A stretch of DNA of 64,000 nucleotides, from assembly GCF_000378965.1 (NCBI RefSeq), contig NZ_KB900536.1:1371583-1435582 (forward strand), in the 5' to 3' direction. The notes beneath the pieces are model-generated. The model worked only from the letters and a program-made list of their open reading frames with translations. It was not told the origin of the DNA and searched no databases. Each line of letters begins with the position of its first letter. Positions within the stretch are counted from its first letter, which is position 1. Position numbers and translations under genes: made by a program. The stretch comes from Thioalkalivibrio thiocyanodenitrificans ARhD 1 (lineage in GTDB: Bacteria; Pseudomonadota; Gammaproteobacteria; Ectothiorhodospirales; Ectothiorhodospiraceae). Shown piece after piece: positions 3,819 to 44,218 of the stretch.

Positions 3819-6485
<2,667 letters not shown>

Positions 6486-6740: not shown

Positions 6741-7781
6741 ATGACATCCGTACAGACACTGACCCTGCGGTATCCGGACGACTGGCATCTGCACCTGCGC
6801 GACGGTGACGCGTTACCCGCCGTCGTGCCGCATACCGCACAGCGGTTTGCGCGGGCCATCGTCATGCCGAACCTCAAGCCGCCGGTGACCACCACGGAAC
6901 AGGCGCTCGCCTATCGTTCACGCATTCTCGCCGCGGTGCCGCACGGCGCGGCCTTCACACCGCTCATGACGCTGTACCTGACGGATGACACAACGGCGGA
7001 CGAAATCCGCCGCGCCAGGGACAGCGGCATCGTATACGGCGTGAAGCTCTATCCGGCCGGCGCCACCACCCACTCCGATGCGGGCGTCACCCATGTGCGC
7101 CATGCCTATGCCGCCCTGGAAGCGATGCAGCAGGCCGGACTGCCCCTGCTGGTGCACGGGGAGGCCACCGATCCGGACGTGGACGTGTTCGACCGGGAAA
7201 CGGTGTTCATCGAGCGGACCCTGGCGCCGCTGATGAAGGACTTCCCGGGCCTGAAGATCGTGCTCGAGCACATCACCACGGCCGATGCGGCGGCCTTCGT
7301 GCGCGAGGGCGGCGAGCTCCTCGGGGCAACGGTGACGCCGCAGCACATCCTGATGAACCGCAATGCCCTGTTTCAGGGCGGGATCCGTCCCCATCACTAC
7401 TGTCTTCCGGTGCTCAAGCGCGAACGCCATCGCCAGGCCATTATGGACGTACTGGCCGAAGGTCATGCACGTTTCTTCCTGGGCACCGACAGCGCACCCC
7501 ACCCCAGGGGCGCCAAGGAATCCGCCTGCGGCTGCGCCGGCATCTACAGTGCCCATGCCGCCCTGGAGCTCTATGCCGAGGCCTTCGAGGCGGCCGGCGC
7601 CCTGCAGCATCTGGAGGCGTTTGCCAGCCTCAACGGCCCGCGCTTCTACGGCCTGCCCGAGAACGAGGGGACCCTCACCCTGGTGCGGGATCCCTGGGAG
7701 GTGCCTCAGGCGTATCCGCTGGGCGGGGACACGGTGGTGCCATTGCGGGCGGGGACACACATTGCCTGGCGACTCAAGTGA
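6741..7781 (+). CDS. pyrC: Dihydroorotase, class II
   Basis: Zinc amidohydrolase that closes carbamoyl-aspartate to dihydroorotate in pyrimidine synthesis. At 346 residues it matches the E. coli enzyme (348). Visible catalytic features: HLHLRD with metal ligands His16 and His18, the carboxylated Lys102 in YGVKLYPAG, the His of HGEATD, the His of LEHITT, and the metal Asp in GTDSAPH. It is divergent from aceE, with about 255 bases between the two starts. Its TGA stop forms part of the first unit of a heptamer repeat. Confidence 0.97.
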   Translation: MTSVQTLTLRYPDDWHLHLRDGDALPAVVPHTAQRFARAIVMPNLKPPVTTTEQALAYRSRILAAVPHGAAFTPLMTLYLTDDTTADEIRRARDSGIVYGVKLYPAGATTHSDAGVTHVRHAYAALEAMQQAGLPLLVHGEATDPDVDVFDRETVFIERTLAPLMKDFPGLKIVLEHITTADAAAFVREGGELLGATVTPQHILMNRNALFQGGIRPHHYCLPVLKRERHRQAIMDVLAEGHARFFLGTDSAPHPRGAKESACGCAGIYSAHAALELYAEAFEAAGALQHLEAFASLNGPRFYGLPENEGTLTLVRDPWEVPQAYPLGGDTVVPLRAGTHIAWRLK

Positions 7782-7888
7782 AGTGGGAAGTGGGAATTGG
7801 GAAGTGGGAGGGGTGGGTGTCCGCGGATGGAGATGACAGCCTTTCAGGCCCTTCTTCCCATTTCCCAATTCCCACTTCCCACTTCACC
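7779..7888. repeat. Inverted heptamer repeat (AAGTGGG type) between pyrC and rnt
   Basis: The left arm (about 7779-7812) is built from AAGTGGG and AATTGGG units. The right arm (about 7853-7887) is the reverse complement (CCCACTT, CCCAATT). A spacer of about 40 bases separates them and contains GCCTTTCAG at 7839. The arms could fold into a long stem. The left arm starts inside the pyrC stop codon. Confidence 0.9.
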
Positions 7889-16282: not shown

Positions 16283-16329
16283 GTGCCTGCCCGTTTGCGG
16301 GACACCGTCGTTTTCCGGCCTGTCGACCT

Positions 16330-16606
16330 TCCCGAACCCAACCCCCTTTCGCCCGGAGGACCGGGCTCCTACGCGGCCTCGATCCCGCCCCGTGGGAGCC
16401 CGGTCACCTGGGCGATCCTCTCCTACCCAAGCCCCTTTCGCCCGGAGGACCGGGCTCCTACGCGGCTACGATCCCGCTGTAGGAGCCCAGTCCCCTGGGC
16501 GATCCCGCCCAAGCGAAACCCCTTTCGCCCGGAGGACCGGGCTCCTACGTGGCCTTGATCCCGCCCCGTAGGAGCCCGGTCCTCCGGGCGATCCTGCCCA
16601 GCCCCC
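16330..16606. repeat. REP/BIME cluster (GTAGGAG plus palindrome)
   Basis: Alternating inverted elements: CGCCCGGAGGACCGGGCTCCTACG and its reverse complement occur about six times, separated by short linkers (CGGCCTCGATCC, CCCAAGCC). Each element is a GC hairpin bounded by GTAGGAG or CTCCTAC, the same boundary used by the 96-bp array upstream of lpdA but with a different stem. It fills the gap between the sodB terminator and the argD promoter. The stretch from 16283 to the promoter holds nothing else recognisable. Confidence 0.88.
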
Positions 16607-21083: not shown

Positions 21084-21199
21084 GTCAAGGTTCAAAGTTC
21101 AAAGTTCAAAGTTCAAAGTTCAAGGTTCAAGGTCAGTGGAAGGATCAAGCCTTGGCACCGCTTTGAACTTTGAACTTTGAACTTTGAACCTTGAACCCC
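21084..21199. repeat. Inverted heptamer repeat (GTTCAAA type) between ppk and ppx
   Basis: Left arm (21084-21133): seven units of GTTCAAA or GTTCAAG. Right arm (21162-21197): CTTTGAA units. The spacer is about 28 bases. It occupies the gap between convergent ppk and ppx and ends at the ppx stop. Confidence 0.93.
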
Positions 21200-28784: not shown

Positions 28785-28804
28785 AGGGCGAATCAAGGGT
28801 CAAC

Positions 28805-29112
28805 ATTCAAAGTTCAAGGTTCAAAGTTCAAAGTTCAAAGTTCAAGGGGAAGGTTGGGGCACTTCGTCGTTCCGGGTGGATTCGATCATCACGGGGGTCC
28901 ATGGACATCTGCGCGACACGCCCCCGTAGAGGCCCAGCCCGCTAACGACTTGGCCGTCGCCGACCAAGGCATTCCACTCGAAACGCCGAAGAGCCTTGAA
29001 CCTTGAACCTTGAACCTTGAACCTTGAACTTTGAACCTTGAACCTTGAACCTTGAACTTTGAACTTTGAACTTTGAACTTTGAACTTTGAACCTTGAACT
29101 TTGAACCTTGAA
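28805..29112. repeat. Large inverted heptamer repeat (GTTCAAA type) between egtB and marC
   Basis: The left arm (about 28805-28848) has six GTTCAAA or GTTCAAG units. The right arm (about 28995-29112) is much longer, with about 16 CTTTGAA or CCTTGAA units. The spacer is about 145 bases and shows no coding or RNA gene. This is the largest of the heptamer loci and fills the whole gap between the genes. Frames through it give spurious repeat peptides. Confidence 0.93.
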
Positions 29113-29849: not shown

Positions 29850-30066
29850 CTGTCAGTTGTCAGTTGTCAGTTGTCAGTTGTCAGTTGTCAGTTGTCAGTT
29901 GTCAGGAGATGAAAGCATGTGCTGGCGGGGATGCAAGGGAACTCGCTTGTCGATGAACGGTCTTTTGCGAAAGGCCCGATCAGCGCCCGGCCCTGACTTG
30001 CGGCCCCCCCTGCCACGAACCACGAACCACTGACAACTGACAACTGACAACTGACAACTGACAATG
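29850..30066. repeat. Inverted heptamer repeat (GTTGTCA type) between marC and the SIMPL gene
   Basis: The left arm (29850-29904) has about eight TGTCAGT units. The right arm (30027-30066) has CTGACAA units, preceded by an ACGAACC pair. The spacer is about 120 bases with nothing recognised. Same architecture as the other heptamer loci but a different heptamer. Confidence 0.93.
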
Positions 30067-30093
30067 GACAATGGACCAGTAAGGAGAACCTCC

Positions 30094-38814: not shown

Positions 38815-40173
38815 TCAGGAGGCCCTGAACATCTCCGGCTCCAGGTGATGACGCTTGAGCAGCTTGTAGAACTCGGTGCGGTTGCGCCCGGCGAGACGTG
38901 CCGCACTGCTCACGTTGCCGCCGGTGATCTGCAACAACTCCTCCAGATAGTCCCGCTCGAAGCGATCCCGCGCCTCGGCCAGCGGCAGCACGCCACTCGG
39001 ATCGGAACGCAAGGCACGCTGCACCAGGCTGGCGGGCACGATCTCCGTGGTGCTCAGCGCCGCGGACTGCTCCACGACATTCTGCAACTGTCGCACGTTG
39101 CCCGGCCAGGAAGCGGCCATGAGCGCCTCCATGGCGTCGGGGGCGAAGCCCTCGATGTGCCGGCCATTGCGCTCGTTGACCCGGGAAAGGAAATGGCGCG
39201 CCAGCAGCGGGATATCATCCCGGCGTTCGCGCAGCGGCGGCATTTCAAGGCGCACCACATTCAGGCGGTAATAGAGATCGGCGCGAAAGTCGCCCGTCTC
39301 CACGGCCTGTTCCAGATCCCTGTGGGTGGCGGAAATCACGCGAACGTCCACCGGCACCTGGTTGTTTGCCCCCACCGGACGTACTTCGCCTTCCTGCAAT
39401 ACCCGCAGCAGCTTGGCCTGGAAGGCCAGCGGCATGTCACCCACCTCGTCCATGAACAGGGTGCCGCCGTCCGCGGATTCGAACAGCCCCTTGCGGCTCT
39501 GGGTGGCCCCCGTGAAGGATCCCTTGCTGTGTCCGAACAGTTCCGATTCCAGCAGGGCCTCGGGAATGGAGCTGCAGTTGACGGCCACGAAGGGCCCGGC
39601 CGCCCGCCGGCTGGCCCGGTGCAGGGCGCGGGCCAGCAATTCCTTGCCCGTGCCGCTCTCGCTCTGGATGAGCACATTGGACTCGCTGTCGGCCACCAGT
39701 CGCGCCTGGCGCAGAGCCTCTTCCATGACCGCACTGCGACTGATGATGCCGTCGCGCCAGTCACCGGAGTCATCGCCCCCCTCACGCGGCTCGGCGCTCA
39801 GGCCGGTCAGGCGCAGGGCACGGTCCACGTAGTCCAGAAGCTCCTGGCTGTCGAAGGGCTTGGTCAGAAAACCGAACACACCCCGGCGGGTCGCCTCCAC
39901 CGCGTCCGGGATGGTGCCGTGGGCAGTGAGGATGATGATGGGCAGCGCCGGATGATTCTTGTGGATCGCATCGAACAGCGCCATGCCGTCGATGCCGTCC
40001 ATCCGCAGATCGGTGATCACCAGCCTCGGCTGGAACTGAGGCAACGCGGCCAGGGCCTGCTCGCCGCTGGCCACCGCCTTGATCTCGTGACCCGCCGACG
40101 CGAGGCGCATGGACAACAGGCGCAGCAGCCCTTCATCGTCATCCACCAGCAGTATGCGTGTCGTTTCACTCAT
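38815..40173 (-). CDS. glrR: Sigma-54-dependent response regulator, GlrR/QseF type
   Basis: 452 residues: REC domain with phosphoacceptor Asp55 (VITDLRMDG), AAA+ domain with Walker A SESGTGKELL and the sigma-54 contact loop GSFTGA, and a Fis-type HTH at the C terminus (SSAARLAGRNRTEFYKLLKRHHL). The gene order kinase - small lipoprotein - regulator is that of E. coli glrK-qseG-glrR, which supports the name more than sequence alone. Its ATG overlaps the qseG stop (ATGA). TGTC-N10-GACA sites, the known GlrR motif, occur 3 kb away. Confidence 0.93.
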   Translation of the reverse strand: MSETTRILLVDDDEGLLRLLSMRLASAGHEIKAVASGEQALAALPQFQPRLVITDLRMDGIDGMALFDAIHKNHPALPIIILTAHGTIPDAVEATRRGVFGFLTKPFDSQELLDYVDRALRLTGLSAEPREGGDDSGDWRDGIISRSAVMEEALRQARLVADSESNVLIQSESGTGKELLARALHRASRRAAGPFVAVNCSSIPEALLESELFGHSKGSFTGATQSRKGLFESADGGTLFMDEVGDMPLAFQAKLLRVLQEGEVRPVGANNQVPVDVRVISATHRDLEQAVETGDFRADLYYRLNVVRLEMPPLRERRDDIPLLARHFLSRVNERNGRHIEGFAPDAMEALMAASWPGNVRQLQNVVEQSAALSTTEIVPASLVQRALRSDPSGVLPLAEARDRFERDYLEELLQITGGNVSSAARLAGRNRTEFYKLLKRHHLEPEMFRAS

Positions 40174-40742
40174 CGTTCGTTTTCCAGGTTCGGGGCCGGG
40201 GTCCGGTCGCGGTCACGGATCTCCCGCTCAATGGCCTTGAGTTCTTCCAGTTGTTGTTGCAATGCGTCGCGCTCGGAGCGCGCGTCACTCAGACTCGCCC
40301 GCAGGGCCTGGCGCGCGAGAAGCTGATCCCGCAACAGGTTGGCCAGCAGGTTTCCGCCGTGGGAAGACGCCTCCCGGGACAGATGGGCCTCCAGCAGTTC
40401 CACGGCACGGGCGTTCTCCCCCGGGTCGTCAAGGGCCAGGAGCAGTAATGCCTGGCGGAGCGGTCCGGAGCCGGGGGACTCGAGCGCATCGCGCAGGGCC
40501 TGTTCCCCCTGATCCGACAGGGCCGCCACCTCATCCATGAGCTGACCCAGCCCTCTGGCATCCAATGCCGCCAGGCGGTCGTCCGCAAGGCAATGCATGG
40601 TTGGAGGGTCCGTATCCTCCACGTGCAACGGACAAGGCTTCGCCACGGGGCGCGCGTCCTGAATCGCCGCACAGGCACCGATCAGGACGGACACGAGCAT
40701 CACCATCCCTGCCATCCGCACTTGACGGAGACGTGCGTTCAT
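40170..40742 (-). CDS. qseG: QseG/YfhG-like outer-membrane lipoprotein
   Basis: 190 residues. A signal peptide ends in the lipobox LIGAC (Cys near 24). The rest is helical with a C-terminal coiled coil (LSDARSERDALQQQLEELKAIEREIRDRD). It lies between glrK and glrR with 4-base overlaps at both ends. In enteric bacteria QseG binds and activates the GlrK (QseE) kinase from the periplasm; the same role is inferred. Sequence similarity to QseG itself was not tested. Confidence 0.82.
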   Translation of the reverse strand: MNARLRQVRMAGMVMLVSVLIGACAAIQDARPVAKPCPLHVEDTDPPTMHCLADDRLAALDARGLGQLMDEVAALSDQGEQALRDALESPGSGPLRQALLLLALDDPGENARAVELLEAHLSREASSHGGNLLANLLRDQLLARQALRASLSDARSERDALQQQLEELKAIEREIRDRDRTPAPNLENER

Positions 40743-42238
40743 ACGACCTCCGCTGGATCATCGTCTTGGCCCGCCGCCTCGGGCGGCGCCAGCCAGACCC
40801 GCGGCAGCAGCAGGCGCAACCGCGCGCCCCACTCAATGTCCAGTACCTGCAATTGCCCGTTCAGGGCCCTGGCGTACTCTCGGGCGATGGAAAGTCCCAT
40901 GCCGCTGCCGCGCACATGGCCACGGTGACCGCTGGGACCGGTGTCACCCTGGTAGAAGACCTCGAACACCCGTTCCCGTTCCTCCCGGGGAATACCGGGG
41001 CCCTGGTCGCTGATCTCCACGAAGATCTGATCCCCGAACTTGCCCGTCTGAATGCGCACGGCCGAGTTCTCTACGGTGAACTTGATAGCATTGGACAAGA
41101 GATTATCCAGAATGACCCTGATTTTTTCCCGGTCCGAGTTCACTGTCTCCCCGGACAGCCCGAGTTCGAGCCGGACGCCTTTGCTTCGCGCCGCCAGCTT
41201 GTGCTGCTCGACCAGATCCGTGATCAGGGAGTCCAGATCGATGGGCCGGGACTCGATGACCGGCAGGGCCGTGTGAGCGACACTGAAGCTGATCAGGTCC
41301 TCGATGAGGTGCTGCAACTGAACGCTGTTGTCGCGCACGATTTCCACAATCTCTCCCTGCTGCGGTGTCAGGCTGCCCACCACCCGGTCCGTGAGCAGTT
41401 CCGTACCCTCGCGGATATTCGTCAGTGGCGTCTTGAGCTCGTGGGAGATATGGCGCAGAAAGGTGACCTTCTGCTCTTCCAGCTCAACCAGGCGCTGCCT
41501 GAGCCAATCCAGCCGCGCACCCAGCTCCGAGAGGTCATGGGGCCCGGTGATGCGGATCGGGCGGTCGAACCGACCGGAGCCCAGGGTGTGGATGGAGCGG
41601 TTGATCTGACGCAGCGGCCGCAGGATCAGCACGGTGAACACCACCACCAGGACCAGGACCGCGGGGATGAGTGCGGAAGCCTGCCAGAGCAGTTCCTGGC
41701 GCACCTCGGTCGCCTGCGCCTGCATGGCCTCGACCTCCCGGGATACCGCCCGCGTACTCTGCTGAAACACCCCGCGCGCCAGCTCATTTAGGGCAGGGAA
41801 ACTCTCCAGCACGGCACGCACTCCCTCGCTGCCCGGCGCTTCGGTCTTCAGGGCCTCGAAGGCATCGGCCTCCCGGCGTTCGAGAAGTCGCAGCTCCTCC
41901 CATACCGGCGTGCCCAATTCCAGCCCGTACATTCGCGCAAGCGCCTCCCCGAGGCTTTCACGCCGGCTGGCGTAGGCCTCCAGCAAGGCCGTGTCGCCCA
42001 GTACATGGTACTGGCGCGCATGGCGCTCCAGGGCCGTCACATCTTCCATCAGCGTACGGCTCGCCTGGATGGCCTGCACGGCGTCCAGCACGGCCTGCTG
42101 CCCCTGGTGGGTCAACCTGTCCACGGAGATCAGCGCCGTGGCCAAGGCAAAGAACAGGGGCAGCGTCACCAGGGAGAATCCCAACAGGATCAGCTGAAGA
42201 ATGGTGAGTGAACGATAAAAGGACAGCGGCGCGGCCAC
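40739..42238 (-). CDS. glrK: Sensor histidine kinase, GlrK/QseE type
   Basis: 499 residues from a GTG start; the frame is open further and other starts are possible. Helix 1 (LTILQLILLGFSLVTLPLFFALATALI), a helical periplasmic domain of about 150 residues, helix 2 (ASALIPAVLVLVVVFTVLIL), HAMP, the H box FLRHISHELKTPLTNI, N box LDNLLSNAIKFT and G boxes DQGPGIP and GSGMGLSI. First gene of glrK-qseG-glrR with overlapping junctions. The phosphorylation partner is GlrR. Confidence 0.9.
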   Translation of the reverse strand: MAAPLSFYRSLTILQLILLGFSLVTLPLFFALATALISVDRLTHQGQQAVLDAVQAIQASRTLMEDVTALERHARQYHVLGDTALLEAYASRRESLGEALARMYGLELGTPVWEELRLLERREADAFEALKTEAPGSEGVRAVLESFPALNELARGVFQQSTRAVSREVEAMQAQATEVRQELLWQASALIPAVLVLVVVFTVLILRPLRQINRSIHTLGSGRFDRPIRITGPHDLSELGARLDWLRQRLVELEEQKVTFLRHISHELKTPLTNIREGTELLTDRVVGSLTPQQGEIVEIVRDNSVQLQHLIEDLISFSVAHTALPVIESRPIDLDSLITDLVEQHKLAARSKGVRLELGLSGETVNSDREKIRVILDNLLSNAIKFTVENSAVRIQTGKFGDQIFVEISDQGPGIPREERERVFEVFYQGDTGPSGHRGHVRGSGMGLSIAREYARALNGQLQVLDIEWGARLRLLLPRVWLAPPEAAGQDDDPAEVV

Positions 42239-42350
42239 GATTCGCGAACTTATAACAAGGGGCCGCCACAGGGTCAAACGGGCGCCCGGTCCTCCCGCCT
42301 GTTGTGTCCCGAATCTGGTCACGGATGGAACATCGCTGATCGTGCAGGAC

Positions 42351-42398
42351 AAAAATGACCCGGCCCATCCCGACAAACCTCATCGGGGATGGGCCGGG
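42351..42398 (-). terminator. Rho-independent terminator of the acidic-repeat gene
   Basis: 13-bp stem CCCGGCCCATCCC / GGGATGGGCCGGG with a 14-base loop; read on the minus strand it is followed by TCATTTTTG. It lies about 90 bases after the stop of the acidic-repeat gene and upstream of glrK, so it isolates the kinase operon. Confidence 0.88.
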
Positions 42399-42486
42399 CC
42401 CTCCTGGAAGAACCGATTCCCGACGCATCCGGATGCACCTCGCGGTTCAAACCGGACGGTGTCGGTTGATGGCATCCCTGGGGAGA

Positions 42487-43056
42487 TCAGCCGATGATCG
42501 TCCCGCCACGCTGCGGACGGTCGTGGTCCTCGTCCTTCTCCTCCTCGTCCGCATCGTGCATACCGCTCAGGTGCAGGGTGGACTCACCACGCTGCGGGCG
42601 ATCCTTGTCCTCGTCCTTCTCCTCCTCGTCCGCGTCATGCATACCGCTCAGGTGCAGGGTGGACTCACCACGCTGCGGGCGATCCTTGTCCTCGTCCTTC
42701 TCCTCCTCGTCCGCGTCATGCATGCCGCTCAGATGCAGGGTGGACTCACCGCGCTGCGGGCGATCCTTGTCCTCGTCCTTCTCCTCTTCGTCCGCATCGT
42801 GCATACCGCTCAGGTGCAGGGTGGACTCACCGCGCTGCGGGCGATCCTTGTCCTCGTCCTTCTCCTCCTCGTCCTCGTCGTGCCAGGTGCTGAGCTGCAG
42901 AGCATCACGGGTATCCATGTGGTCGCGGGTTTCCTCGTCCTTGTCCTTGTCGTCCTGGCCGTAGCCAATCAGCGCGGCGGAGGCCGAACCGGCACCCAGG
43001 GCGCCGGCCGCGATCATGGCGATCAGCAGAGACTTTACGGAAGTGGGTTTGTTCAT
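42487..43056 (-). CDS. Exported acidic protein with five 27-residue repeats
   Basis: 189 residues. A signal peptide (MNKPTSVKSLLIAMIAAGALG, cleavage after SASA) leads to a short acidic stretch and, from residue 58, five tandem 27-residue units. Each unit reads MHDADEEEKDEDKDRPQRGE then STLHLSG; the first begins WHDED and the last is cut to 24. Corresponding DNA units are 81 bp and nearly identical. Each unit combines an acidic block, a basic DRPQRG and two His, a layout that could bind divalent metal or the cell surface; that is inference. AGGAG precedes the ATG by 8 bases. A sigma-54 promoter and GlrR-type sites lie upstream. No known family recognised. Confidence 0.88.
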   Translation of the reverse strand: MNKPTSVKSLLIAMIAAGALGAGSASAALIGYGQDDKDKDEETRDHMDTRDALQLSTWHDEDEEEKDEDKDRPQRGESTLHLSGMHDADEEEKDEDKDRPQRGESTLHLSGMHDADEEEKDEDKDRPQRGESTLHLSGMHDADEEEKDEDKDRPQRGESTLHLSGMHDADEEEKDEDHDRPQRGGTIIG

Positions 43057-43143
43057 GACATTAACTCCTGAATGATCGTTGCTTGGTTGAGTGGCCCCCT
43101 GTGGCCGGAGGCCCTACGCTTGCGTCGACTTCAATCAGGGTAA

Positions 43144-43159
43144 TGCGACGACCATGCCA
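43144..43159 (-). promoter_or_regulatory. Sigma-54 (-24/-12) promoter of the acidic-repeat gene
   Basis: On the minus strand TGGCATGGTCGTCGCA, against consensus TGGCACG-N4-TTGCA: GG and GC spacing correct, two mismatches. The predicted start is about 75 bases before the ATG. An AT-rich patch (43165-43185) lies between it and the upstream palindromes, where IHF often bends such promoters. Confidence 0.6.
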
Positions 43160-43225: not shown

Positions 43226-43342
43226 TGTCGCTTGCAGGCGACAGATCGCCGGACCGCATCTCGCCAACATCCTGATAAGGCTCACATTCCCGACCGTCGC
43301 CTGAAGGAGACAACCGGCCTGCAACGTCGGGACACCCTGACA
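43226..43342. promoter_or_regulatory. Cluster of three GlrR-type sites (TGTC-N10-GACA)
   Basis: Site 1 at 43226-43243 is TGTCGCTTGCAGGCGACA, a perfect TGTC-N10-GACA with six-base symmetric arms. Sites 2 (43295-43312) and 3 (43325-43342) are CGTC-N10-GACA, one base off. TGTC-N10-GACA is the published recognition motif of GlrR at enteric glmY/glmZ. The sites lie about 100 to 200 bases upstream of the minus-strand sigma-54 start, a normal enhancer distance. Confidence 0.6.
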
Positions 43343-43960: not shown

Positions 43961-44218
43961 ATGAAACCGTTCAACCTGCCCGCTACCGTCAAACCCCTGG
44001 GCCTGGGTGTCCTGCTGACACTGACCCTGTTGGCCGGGTGTTCGGAGAGCGGCCCCGCCGAAGAGGCCGGCGAGCGCATCGACGATGCCGTGGAAGAGGC
44101 CGGGGAGCGCATTGAGGACGCCACGCGGGAAGCAGAGGACGCCATCGACCCGCCGGGTCCCGCCGAGCGTGCCGGCCGCCAGTTCGACGATGCAATGGAG
44201 CGGGCCACCGGCGACTGA
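43961..44218 (+). CDS. Small lipoprotein with acidic amphipathic repeats
   Basis: 85 residues. The signal peptide ends at the lipobox LLAGC (Cys27). The mature part is short and helical with repeated EEAGERIDDAVEEAGERIED-type 11-residue blocks, resembling the small apolipoprotein-like, stress-induced entericidin/YqjD class in style only. AAGGAGA precedes the ATG. A DUF1328 gene follows after 57 bases. Confidence 0.8.
   Translation: MKPFNLPATVKPLGLGVLLTLTLLAGCSESGPAEEAGERIDDAVEEAGERIEDATREAEDAIDPPGPAERAGRQFDDAMERATGD

Follow-up and report, generated by a model that had tools for sequence, protein, structure and literature searches.

A candidate GlrR/sigma-54 output in a soda-lake-type sulfur bacterium: an exported acidic repeat protein that may stand in for EF-hand proteins

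Here we describe a gene for a small exported repeat protein and the regulatory region in front of it. Both lie in the window, by which we mean the whole stretch of 64,000 nucleotides that was analysed. Downstream of the repeat gene on the same strand, past a terminator, are genes for a histidine kinase (glrK), a QseG-like lipoprotein and a sigma-54 activator (glrR). The features of the locus, all on the minus strand, are these:

38815..40173 (-), GlrR/QseF-type sigma-54 activator (best NCBIfam match NF011695 GlrR, 599.8 bits)
40170..40742 (-), QseG-like lipoprotein, named from its position and a lipobox
40739..42376 (-), GlrK/QseE-type histidine kinase (Pfam HAMP, HisKA and HATPase domains), start probably near 42241
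42350..42401 (-), predicted intrinsic terminator (hairpin and T-tract) between the repeat gene and glrK, from a folding test with coordinates read from the sequence
42487..43056 (-), gene for the exported acidic repeat protein, 189 aa
42506..42883 (-), 81-bp tandem array of four full 27-aa units (aa 62-169) and a truncated fifth
42976..43056 (-), part coding for a putative Sec-type signal peptide, aa 1-27, ASA|A, read from the sequence
43065..43069 (-), ribosome binding site AGGAG, 8 nt before the ATG and conserved among the aligned genomes
43144..43159 (-), sigma-54-type promoter TGGCAT-N5-TCGCA, one mismatch to TGGCAY-N5-TTGCW
43226..43243 (-), perfect GlrR box TGTC-N10-GACA, 66 bp from the -24 element, conserved
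43295..43312 (-), GlrR box with one mismatch, 135 bp from the -24 element
43325..43342 (-), third GlrR-like box with one mismatch, 165 bp from the -24 element

The N-terminus of the repeat protein, MNKPTSVKSLLIAMIAAGALGAGSASA, reads as a textbook succession of n-, h- and c-regions with a predicted cut at ASA|A. This signal sequence is strongly conserved in the orthologues of three congeners (G042, G043 and G044), in line with the signal peptide that the original prediction had proposed, and we infer that the protein reaches the envelope via Sec. Cut after ASA, the mature protein would have 162 aa with 59 D/E, 23 K/R, 11 H and no Cys, and a pI of 4.4.

Tandem Repeats Finder places the array at 42506-42883 (period 81, 4.7 copies, 94% matches, score 658). 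The four full units are identical 27-mers, DEEEKDEDKDRPQRGESTLHLSGMHDA, each indeed with the two His that had been described. They are preceded by a degenerate half unit and followed at aa 170 by a truncated fifth unit, DEEEKDEDHDRPQRGG. The description as five near-identical 27-residue repeats was therefore slightly generous, although it holds for the four. At the DNA level the 81-bp units are as alike as had been claimed: the four full units vary in just six columns, all of them third codon positions and all synonymous in the minus frame, which argues for selection on the protein. Over three units, the translations in four of the remaining frames vary at six amino-acid columns, but one plus-strand frame, the fifth, has a single varying column and the frame test alone is insufficient against it. 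Coding on the opposite strand was nevertheless rejected, as the signal sequence, the ribosome binding site and the orthologues favour the minus frame.

We found no credible family for the repeat protein in Pfam, NCBIfam, PHROGs or the sequences of the PDB, which agrees with the earlier view that no known family fits. Matches to PF06894 (E 0.084) and NF043060 (E 0.64) were rejected as weak. The PHROG matches fall on acidic runs and were taken as low complexity; PHROGs 16061 and 37337, with no function assigned, resemble an acidic run of the protein weakly (E 2.5e-5 and 4.8e-4) over 28 and 18 residues only, and we draw no relationship from this. Two calcium-binding designs deserve mention. The EF-hand loop has a Gly at position 6 and a hydrophobic residue at position 8, and the RTX calcium repeat has the nonapeptide motif GGxGxDxUx. 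Pfam EF-hand models (PF00036, PF13202, PF13405 and PF13499) gave no match in the repeat protein up to E = 1, and on this ground an EF-hand identity of the repeat itself was rejected. The RTX nonapeptide is absent from the sequence as read by eye. A single-sequence AlphaFold2 model, weak evidence because it was built from one sequence, has a mean pLDDT of 47 and a pTM of 0.15 and contains no helix or strand of reportable length. The protein is probably intrinsically disordered, as far as such a model can indicate.

The point that goes beyond the original prediction is the regulatory setting of the gene. The sigma-54 site is conserved in four aligned genomes, and in all four the -12 element deviates from the consensus in the same way (TCGC). 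The proximal box at 43226..43243 is the only perfect TGTC-N10-GACA in the 64-kb window. The distal box has one mismatch in our genome (G000) and in G043, and is perfect in G044 and G042 at a gap of 134-135 bp. The third GlrR-like box is present in G000 and G043; it was not found in G042 or G044. Over the whole window we counted 21 boxes with at most one mismatch against 22.6 expected by chance, and 5 sigma-54-like sites against 3.8. What stands out is the group of three boxes within 117 bp beside a sigma-54 site, and the repeat gene has the sole box-plus-sigma-54 match in the window. Beyond the window, a scan that covered a further 1.2 Mb of G000, 32% of its 3.75 Mb, found four such sites, about the chance rate, each with a single one-mismatch box; at none of these four were there multiple boxes as at the repeat gene.

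The repeat gene had also been credited with its own terminator. A hairpin of 20 pairs at about 42357-42401, followed by ATTTTTG, bears this out in the folding test (-40.6 kcal/mol, z -4.4, with none of 200 shuffles as stable), although a simple terminator scan did not list it. Beyond the hairpin, glrK may have a sigma-70 promoter of its own: TTGACC-17-TATAAG at 42249-42277 (-) was read by eye and is not in the list of the promoter scan. As for the activator, its score is below the curated equivalog cut-off of NF011695 (763). We call it GlrR-type despite this because GlrR is its best NCBIfam match and the genes are in the order glrK, qseG-like, glrR. The QseG-like lipoprotein had no credible match in Pfam or NCBIfam. 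Divergent from the repeat gene, at 43961-44218 (+), lies a gene for an 85-aa lipoprotein with heptad-like EEAGERIDDA repeats and a weak match, below the cut-off, to the Ala-zipper lipoprotein NF040598 (E 7e-5).

Among 47 genomes of the order the repeat protein was found in four: G000, G042, G043 and G044. Exactly the same four have a close GlrR orthologue (86-100% identity, E < 1e-250), and the next GlrR matches in the order come at E of about 1e-111. In the fifth member of the genus, G045, neither the repeat protein nor a close GlrR orthologue was found. Matches in two genomes of another genus (G016 and G025, E 0.003 and 0.009) lie inside frames of 659 and 788 aa and were set aside as acidic low complexity. 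A protein search of genome contigs returned only two pieces of one MAG. The upstream regions of all four glrR-bearing genomes of the genus keep the proximal box, the distal box and the -24/-12 site.

The orthologues differ in their repeats. That of G044 is in frame, with fewer, degenerate and unequal repeats (TGAEEKDKDKERQNRADSALQLS and similar), which together with the near-identical units of the window fits the recent expansion or homogenisation that had been suggested. In G043 the gene is split over two contig ends and in G042 the array has a 59-N gap. In G000 and G044, the two of the four that have no such break, the gene is complete and in frame; repeats out of frame or disrupted in most strains had been named as the observation that would count against the original prediction. 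The orthologues of G042, G043 and G044 all show the order (D/E)x(D/E)x(D/E)R again. The G044 protein is nearly charge-balanced (25 D/E, 20 K/R, pI 5.1), from which it follows that strong acidity is not conserved. Its mature part of 103 residues contains 2 His, compared with 11 in the 162 residues of the window's protein, and the idea of transition-metal binding through His is weakened accordingly.

The analysis also covered GlrR loci across the class. Of its 369 genomes, 94 have a GlrR match at E up to 1e-125, and 80 stretches were fetched from these, the remainder, mostly weaker matches, being left out. Enrichment added 19 further stretches from the families of two EF-hand loci (f65 and f83) and second copies. 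The final set has 104 stretches, 103 with glrR and 89 with glrK. The scan asked for a sigma-54 site preceded, at a distance of 45-90 bp, by a box with no more than one mismatch. There are 52 such sites in the 104 stretches, compared with 5, 2, 3, 6 and 4 in five Markov-simulated sets. The gaps between box and promoter are mainly near 64, 75 and 85 bp, and a small number lie near 53 and 95; the 66 bp of the repeat gene are in phase with the other loci. With one gap value per family group (n = 26; L021 excluded as a near-copy of the window, f65 split in two, mixed families entered by their median), R is 0.59 at a period of 10.5 bp and 0.61 at 11 bp, and none of 20000 uniform draws reached the value at 10.5 bp. 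This looks like the helical phasing of a real activator site.

What do these promoters drive? At 25 of the 52 sites, over 11 families, the site precedes a small ORF whose product begins with a hydrophobic segment and has an EF-hand loop, a count with an enrichment bias in that 11 of the 25 loci are from f65 and three from f83, two of the latter via enrichment. In the class sample before enrichment, 13 of 80 stretches, again over 11 families, have an EF-hand ORF under a site. Export was judged by a crude hydrophobicity rule. In a Pfam scan of ten of the 25 ORFs all ten matched EF-hand models at E < 0.1, and eight exceeded the curated cut-off; the two below it are L069, which also has a BON domain, and L113. 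Against the 25 EF-hand ORFs under sites stand 17 elsewhere in the stretches, and with slightly different filters the total is 40 among 898 small ORFs. Three of the 17 were judged by eye to be regex false positives (in L098, in L125 and one of the pair in L119), and four more are additional copies at loci that had entered the count before (two in L052, one each in L134 and L135). The remaining ten loci, all from the class sample, have an EF-hand protein in the stretch with no site of this score in front of it. Several of the genomes with GlrR loci encode EF-hand proteins apart from glrR as well (6 matches in G166, 4 each in G065 and G355), and such proteins are thus not special to GlrR.

The repeat gene accounts for four of the 52 sites (that of L021 nearly repeats the window's), and 23 precede neither an EF-hand ORF nor the repeat gene. 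The products at these 23 include charged exported proteins (L079, 72 aa, and L110, 73 aa, both small and non-EF), lipoprotein-like or BON proteins (L053, L074, L082 and L127) and others; some of the sites have no clear exported ORF. BON-domain slot proteins occur at L069:9033-9557 (by Pfam) and, by eye, at L071:4462-4986 and in L127 after the sigma-54 site at 4592, and in f85 slot proteins BON and an EF-hand loop occur together. In L056 and L075 the first long ORF past the site resembles, by eye, a PEP-CTERM/exosortase-associated acyltransferase.

The history of the slot can be read against a tree of GlrR (103 rows, quick method, SH-aLRT). The four rows that carry the repeat gene make up a single clade with support 100, inside a set of 28 rows whose support is 92, drawn open. 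The set otherwise contains 17 rows with an EF-hand protein in the slot, three with one nearby, three with other sites, and L145, one of two loci (with L022) in which the upstream region is missing; the contig of L145 stops short of it. The three other-site rows are L053, with an EF-hand match about 2 kb from glrR, L079, with its acidic 72-aa protein, and L115, with no clear product. For 45 of the 103 rows of the whole tree, the stretch that was fetched showed no site and no EF-hand ORF. A profile (A2) built from 17 slot EF-hand proteins found no member in G042-G045 and only a match at E = 0.25 in G000; the control genomes G242 and G171 were found at 1.7e-29 and 2.3e-25. Whole-genome searches with PF13202 and PF13499 gave no match in G000 or G042-G045. 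PF13499 also missed G242 and G481, which have EF-hand slot proteins, and for this reason we rely on the profile with its positive controls. The simplest reading of these distributions is that the repeat protein replaced an EF-hand protein in the slot; loss of the EF-hand protein followed by an unrelated gain of the repeat gene is a possible alternative history.

A known system provides a useful comparison. In enteric bacteria the neighbour immediately upstream of glrK is the sRNA gene glmY (PMC8745638), whose sigma-54 promoter is activated by QseF/GlrR (PMC6075780). The QseF consensus is TGTCN10GACA, and three putative QseF sites precede glmY in Proteus mirabilis (PMC8745638). The glmY-glrK(qseE)-qseG-glrR(qseF) locus of E. 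coli and Proteus mirabilis, like ours, has a GlrR-boxed sigma-54 unit directly upstream of glrK, with the same gene order and the same boxes. The differences are that its output is an sRNA, where ours is an exported protein, and that our GlrR is below the cut-off of the GlrR model. A GlmY-like sRNA within the repeat-gene unit was considered and rejected, since a covariance search of the locus (L001) against Rfam at E up to 1 returned neither GlmY nor any other match.

The EF-hand slot proteins (e.g. L080, L052 and L064) are the second comparison. They share with the repeat protein the promoter architecture beside the glrK-qseG-glrR genes, a signal-type N-terminus, small size and Asp-rich stretches of DxDxD type. 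They differ in having loops with the Gly and the hydrophobic position, where the repeat protein has neither an EF-hand match nor a predicted fold. In Pseudomonas, the EfhP-type EF-hand proteins are small envelope calcium proteins; we know of no GlrR control of these.

We propose the following model. Under the control of QseG, GlrK would phosphorylate GlrR, which would bind the TGTC-N10-GACA boxes and drive sigma-54 RNA polymerase at 43144-43159. The product would be an exported, disordered, D/E/K-rich repeat protein that leaves the cytoplasm via Sec. In the periplasm or at the surface it would act as a binder or buffer of divalent cations with low affinity and high capacity, the (D/E)x(D/E)x(D/E)R blocks of the repeats making the contacts. 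The sequences themselves show the gene with its signal-type N-terminus, repeats constrained at the level of the protein, the promoter and its boxes at phased distances, the synteny, and EF-hand proteins in this slot in other families. Four elements of this model, GlrR activation, envelope location, disorder and cation binding, are what we infer. They differ in strength. Control of the repeat gene by GlrR and sigma-54 is very probable on the sequence evidence. That the protein is a functional stand-in for the EF-hand proteins of the slot is an even call. Cation binding, proposed from the slot analogy and the composition, is a somewhat weaker candidate for the main work of the protein. The calcium or metal binding of the original prediction gains indirectly from EF-hand proteins in the same promoter slot in 11 other families and loses from the near charge balance in G044. 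As a whole, a GlrR/sigma-54 output in which a cation-binding repeat protein has replaced an EF-hand protein is the best explanation we have, and we consider it about evenly balanced between right and wrong.

The strongest competitor keeps the promoter and gives up the cations. A generic disordered polyampholyte, rich in K, E and D and under GlrR/sigma-54 control, might protect or hydrate the envelope, or fill the periplasm, under salt or alkaline stress and bind no cation specifically. The near charge balance of the G044 orthologue is the best argument for it, helped by the lack of a fold in the AlphaFold2 model (mean pLDDT and pTM from one sequence, as given above) and by L079 and L110, whose slot proteins are small, charged, exported and non-EF. 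However, the commonest slot product is an EF-hand protein, at 25 of 52 sites, which points to cations, and three orthologues have kept the (D/E)x(D/E)x(D/E)R order. We regard this reading as unlikely, though by far the most serious of the alternatives. A third view would make the repeat protein, and the EF-hand proteins elsewhere, a secreted feedback ligand that tunes QseG-GlrK in the periplasm, as CpxP does for CpxA. In its favour, the gene for this exported protein has a kinase gene as its neighbour, and in E. coli the corresponding kinase needs a periplasmic partner, QseG (PMC6075780). Yet acidity is all that the slot proteins have in common, with neither a fold nor a motif shared, unlike what one expects of a specific kinase ligand, and we think this improbable.

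Two further explanations dispense with more of the model. The promoter motifs could have arisen by chance, and the repeat protein could be an orphan of the envelope that has nothing to do with GlrR. Sites of this kind do occur at a few per Mb (2-6 in about 1 Mb simulated, 4 in 1.2 Mb of the genome itself), but the repeat gene has three boxes, one of them perfect and two at the same spacing in the congeners, adjoining glrK-qseG-glrR, and co-occurs with GlrR in four of four genomes; we give this explanation very little credence. Slightly less still goes to a multi-copy precursor cut at RPQRG sites into 27-residue peptides. Its units are identical and have basic sites between acidic blocks, as such a precursor might, but the units of G044 are unequal, and no protease, modification enzyme or transporter was found among the six neighbourhood proteins scanned with Pfam and NCBIfam.

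If the preferred model, the cation-binding replacement of an EF-hand protein, is extended beyond this locus, the GlrK-QseG-GlrR system outside the enterics might serve divalent-cation or envelope-charge homeostasis, frequently with a small secreted calcium-binding protein as its output. In this haloalkaliphilic genus a non-homologous, disordered, acidic repeat protein would then have taken over the same work in the same slot. We put this generalisation forward tentatively and below even chances. Carbonate keeps free Ca2+ low under strongly alkaline conditions. A strain of Thioalkalivibrio sulfidiphilus, HL-EbGr7, which is assigned to biosafety level 1, grows at 0.2-1.5 M Na+ and was grown at pH 10 (PMC3072093).

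The literature on GlrR/QseF, in the portions available, is concerned with glmY, rpoE and virulence in enteric bacteria. Our literature search found no paper that joins EF-hand proteins with GlrR or QseF. GlrR/GlrK are listed among the activators of Acidithiobacillia in a text whose available part leaves calcium unmentioned (PMC12194929), and qseEGF is described as widespread in Pseudomonadota, with no targets outside glmY given in the accessible sections (PMC12691602). Sigma-54 has been tied to the bacterial exterior in general, again with EF-hand and calcium absent from the available part (PMC3162934). If a secreted EF-hand protein is a frequent output of GlrR elsewhere, the cation state of the envelope becomes a candidate for what is sensed or managed. 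Should this be true, a one-promoter reporter is available for the idea, and the repeat protein would clearly illustrate how a disordered protein can take on work that a folded one did before.

Some other observations may be of use to researchers working on these loci. In twelve stretches (L057, L058, L067, L070, L073, L075, L084, L093, L109, L112, L146 and L148) sites lie about 165-270 bp past the end of glrR, and the 100-300 bp that follow several of these sites contain no clear exported ORF. GlrR might drive small RNAs or leaders from them; an Rfam search of 15 loci with a box/sigma-54 site gave no match at gathering scores. The genome of L079 (G065) has two GlrR-box/sigma-54 units in tandem upstream of glrK, the first with no evident exported ORF and the second before the 72-aa acidic exported protein, and has a second glrR at G065:C1:257605-258933. 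The window itself contains other repeats. Short arrays of 7-bp units (TCAAAGT, CCTTGAA, TGTCAGT and others), several of them closely spaced inverted pairs, lie at 7780-7885, 21085-21196, 28793-29112 and 29851-30071. GC-rich tandem arrays at 1555-2372 (96-bp unit, 8.6 copies) and 16327-16604 (89-bp unit, 3.1 copies) hold GTAGGAG and CTCCTAC motifs.
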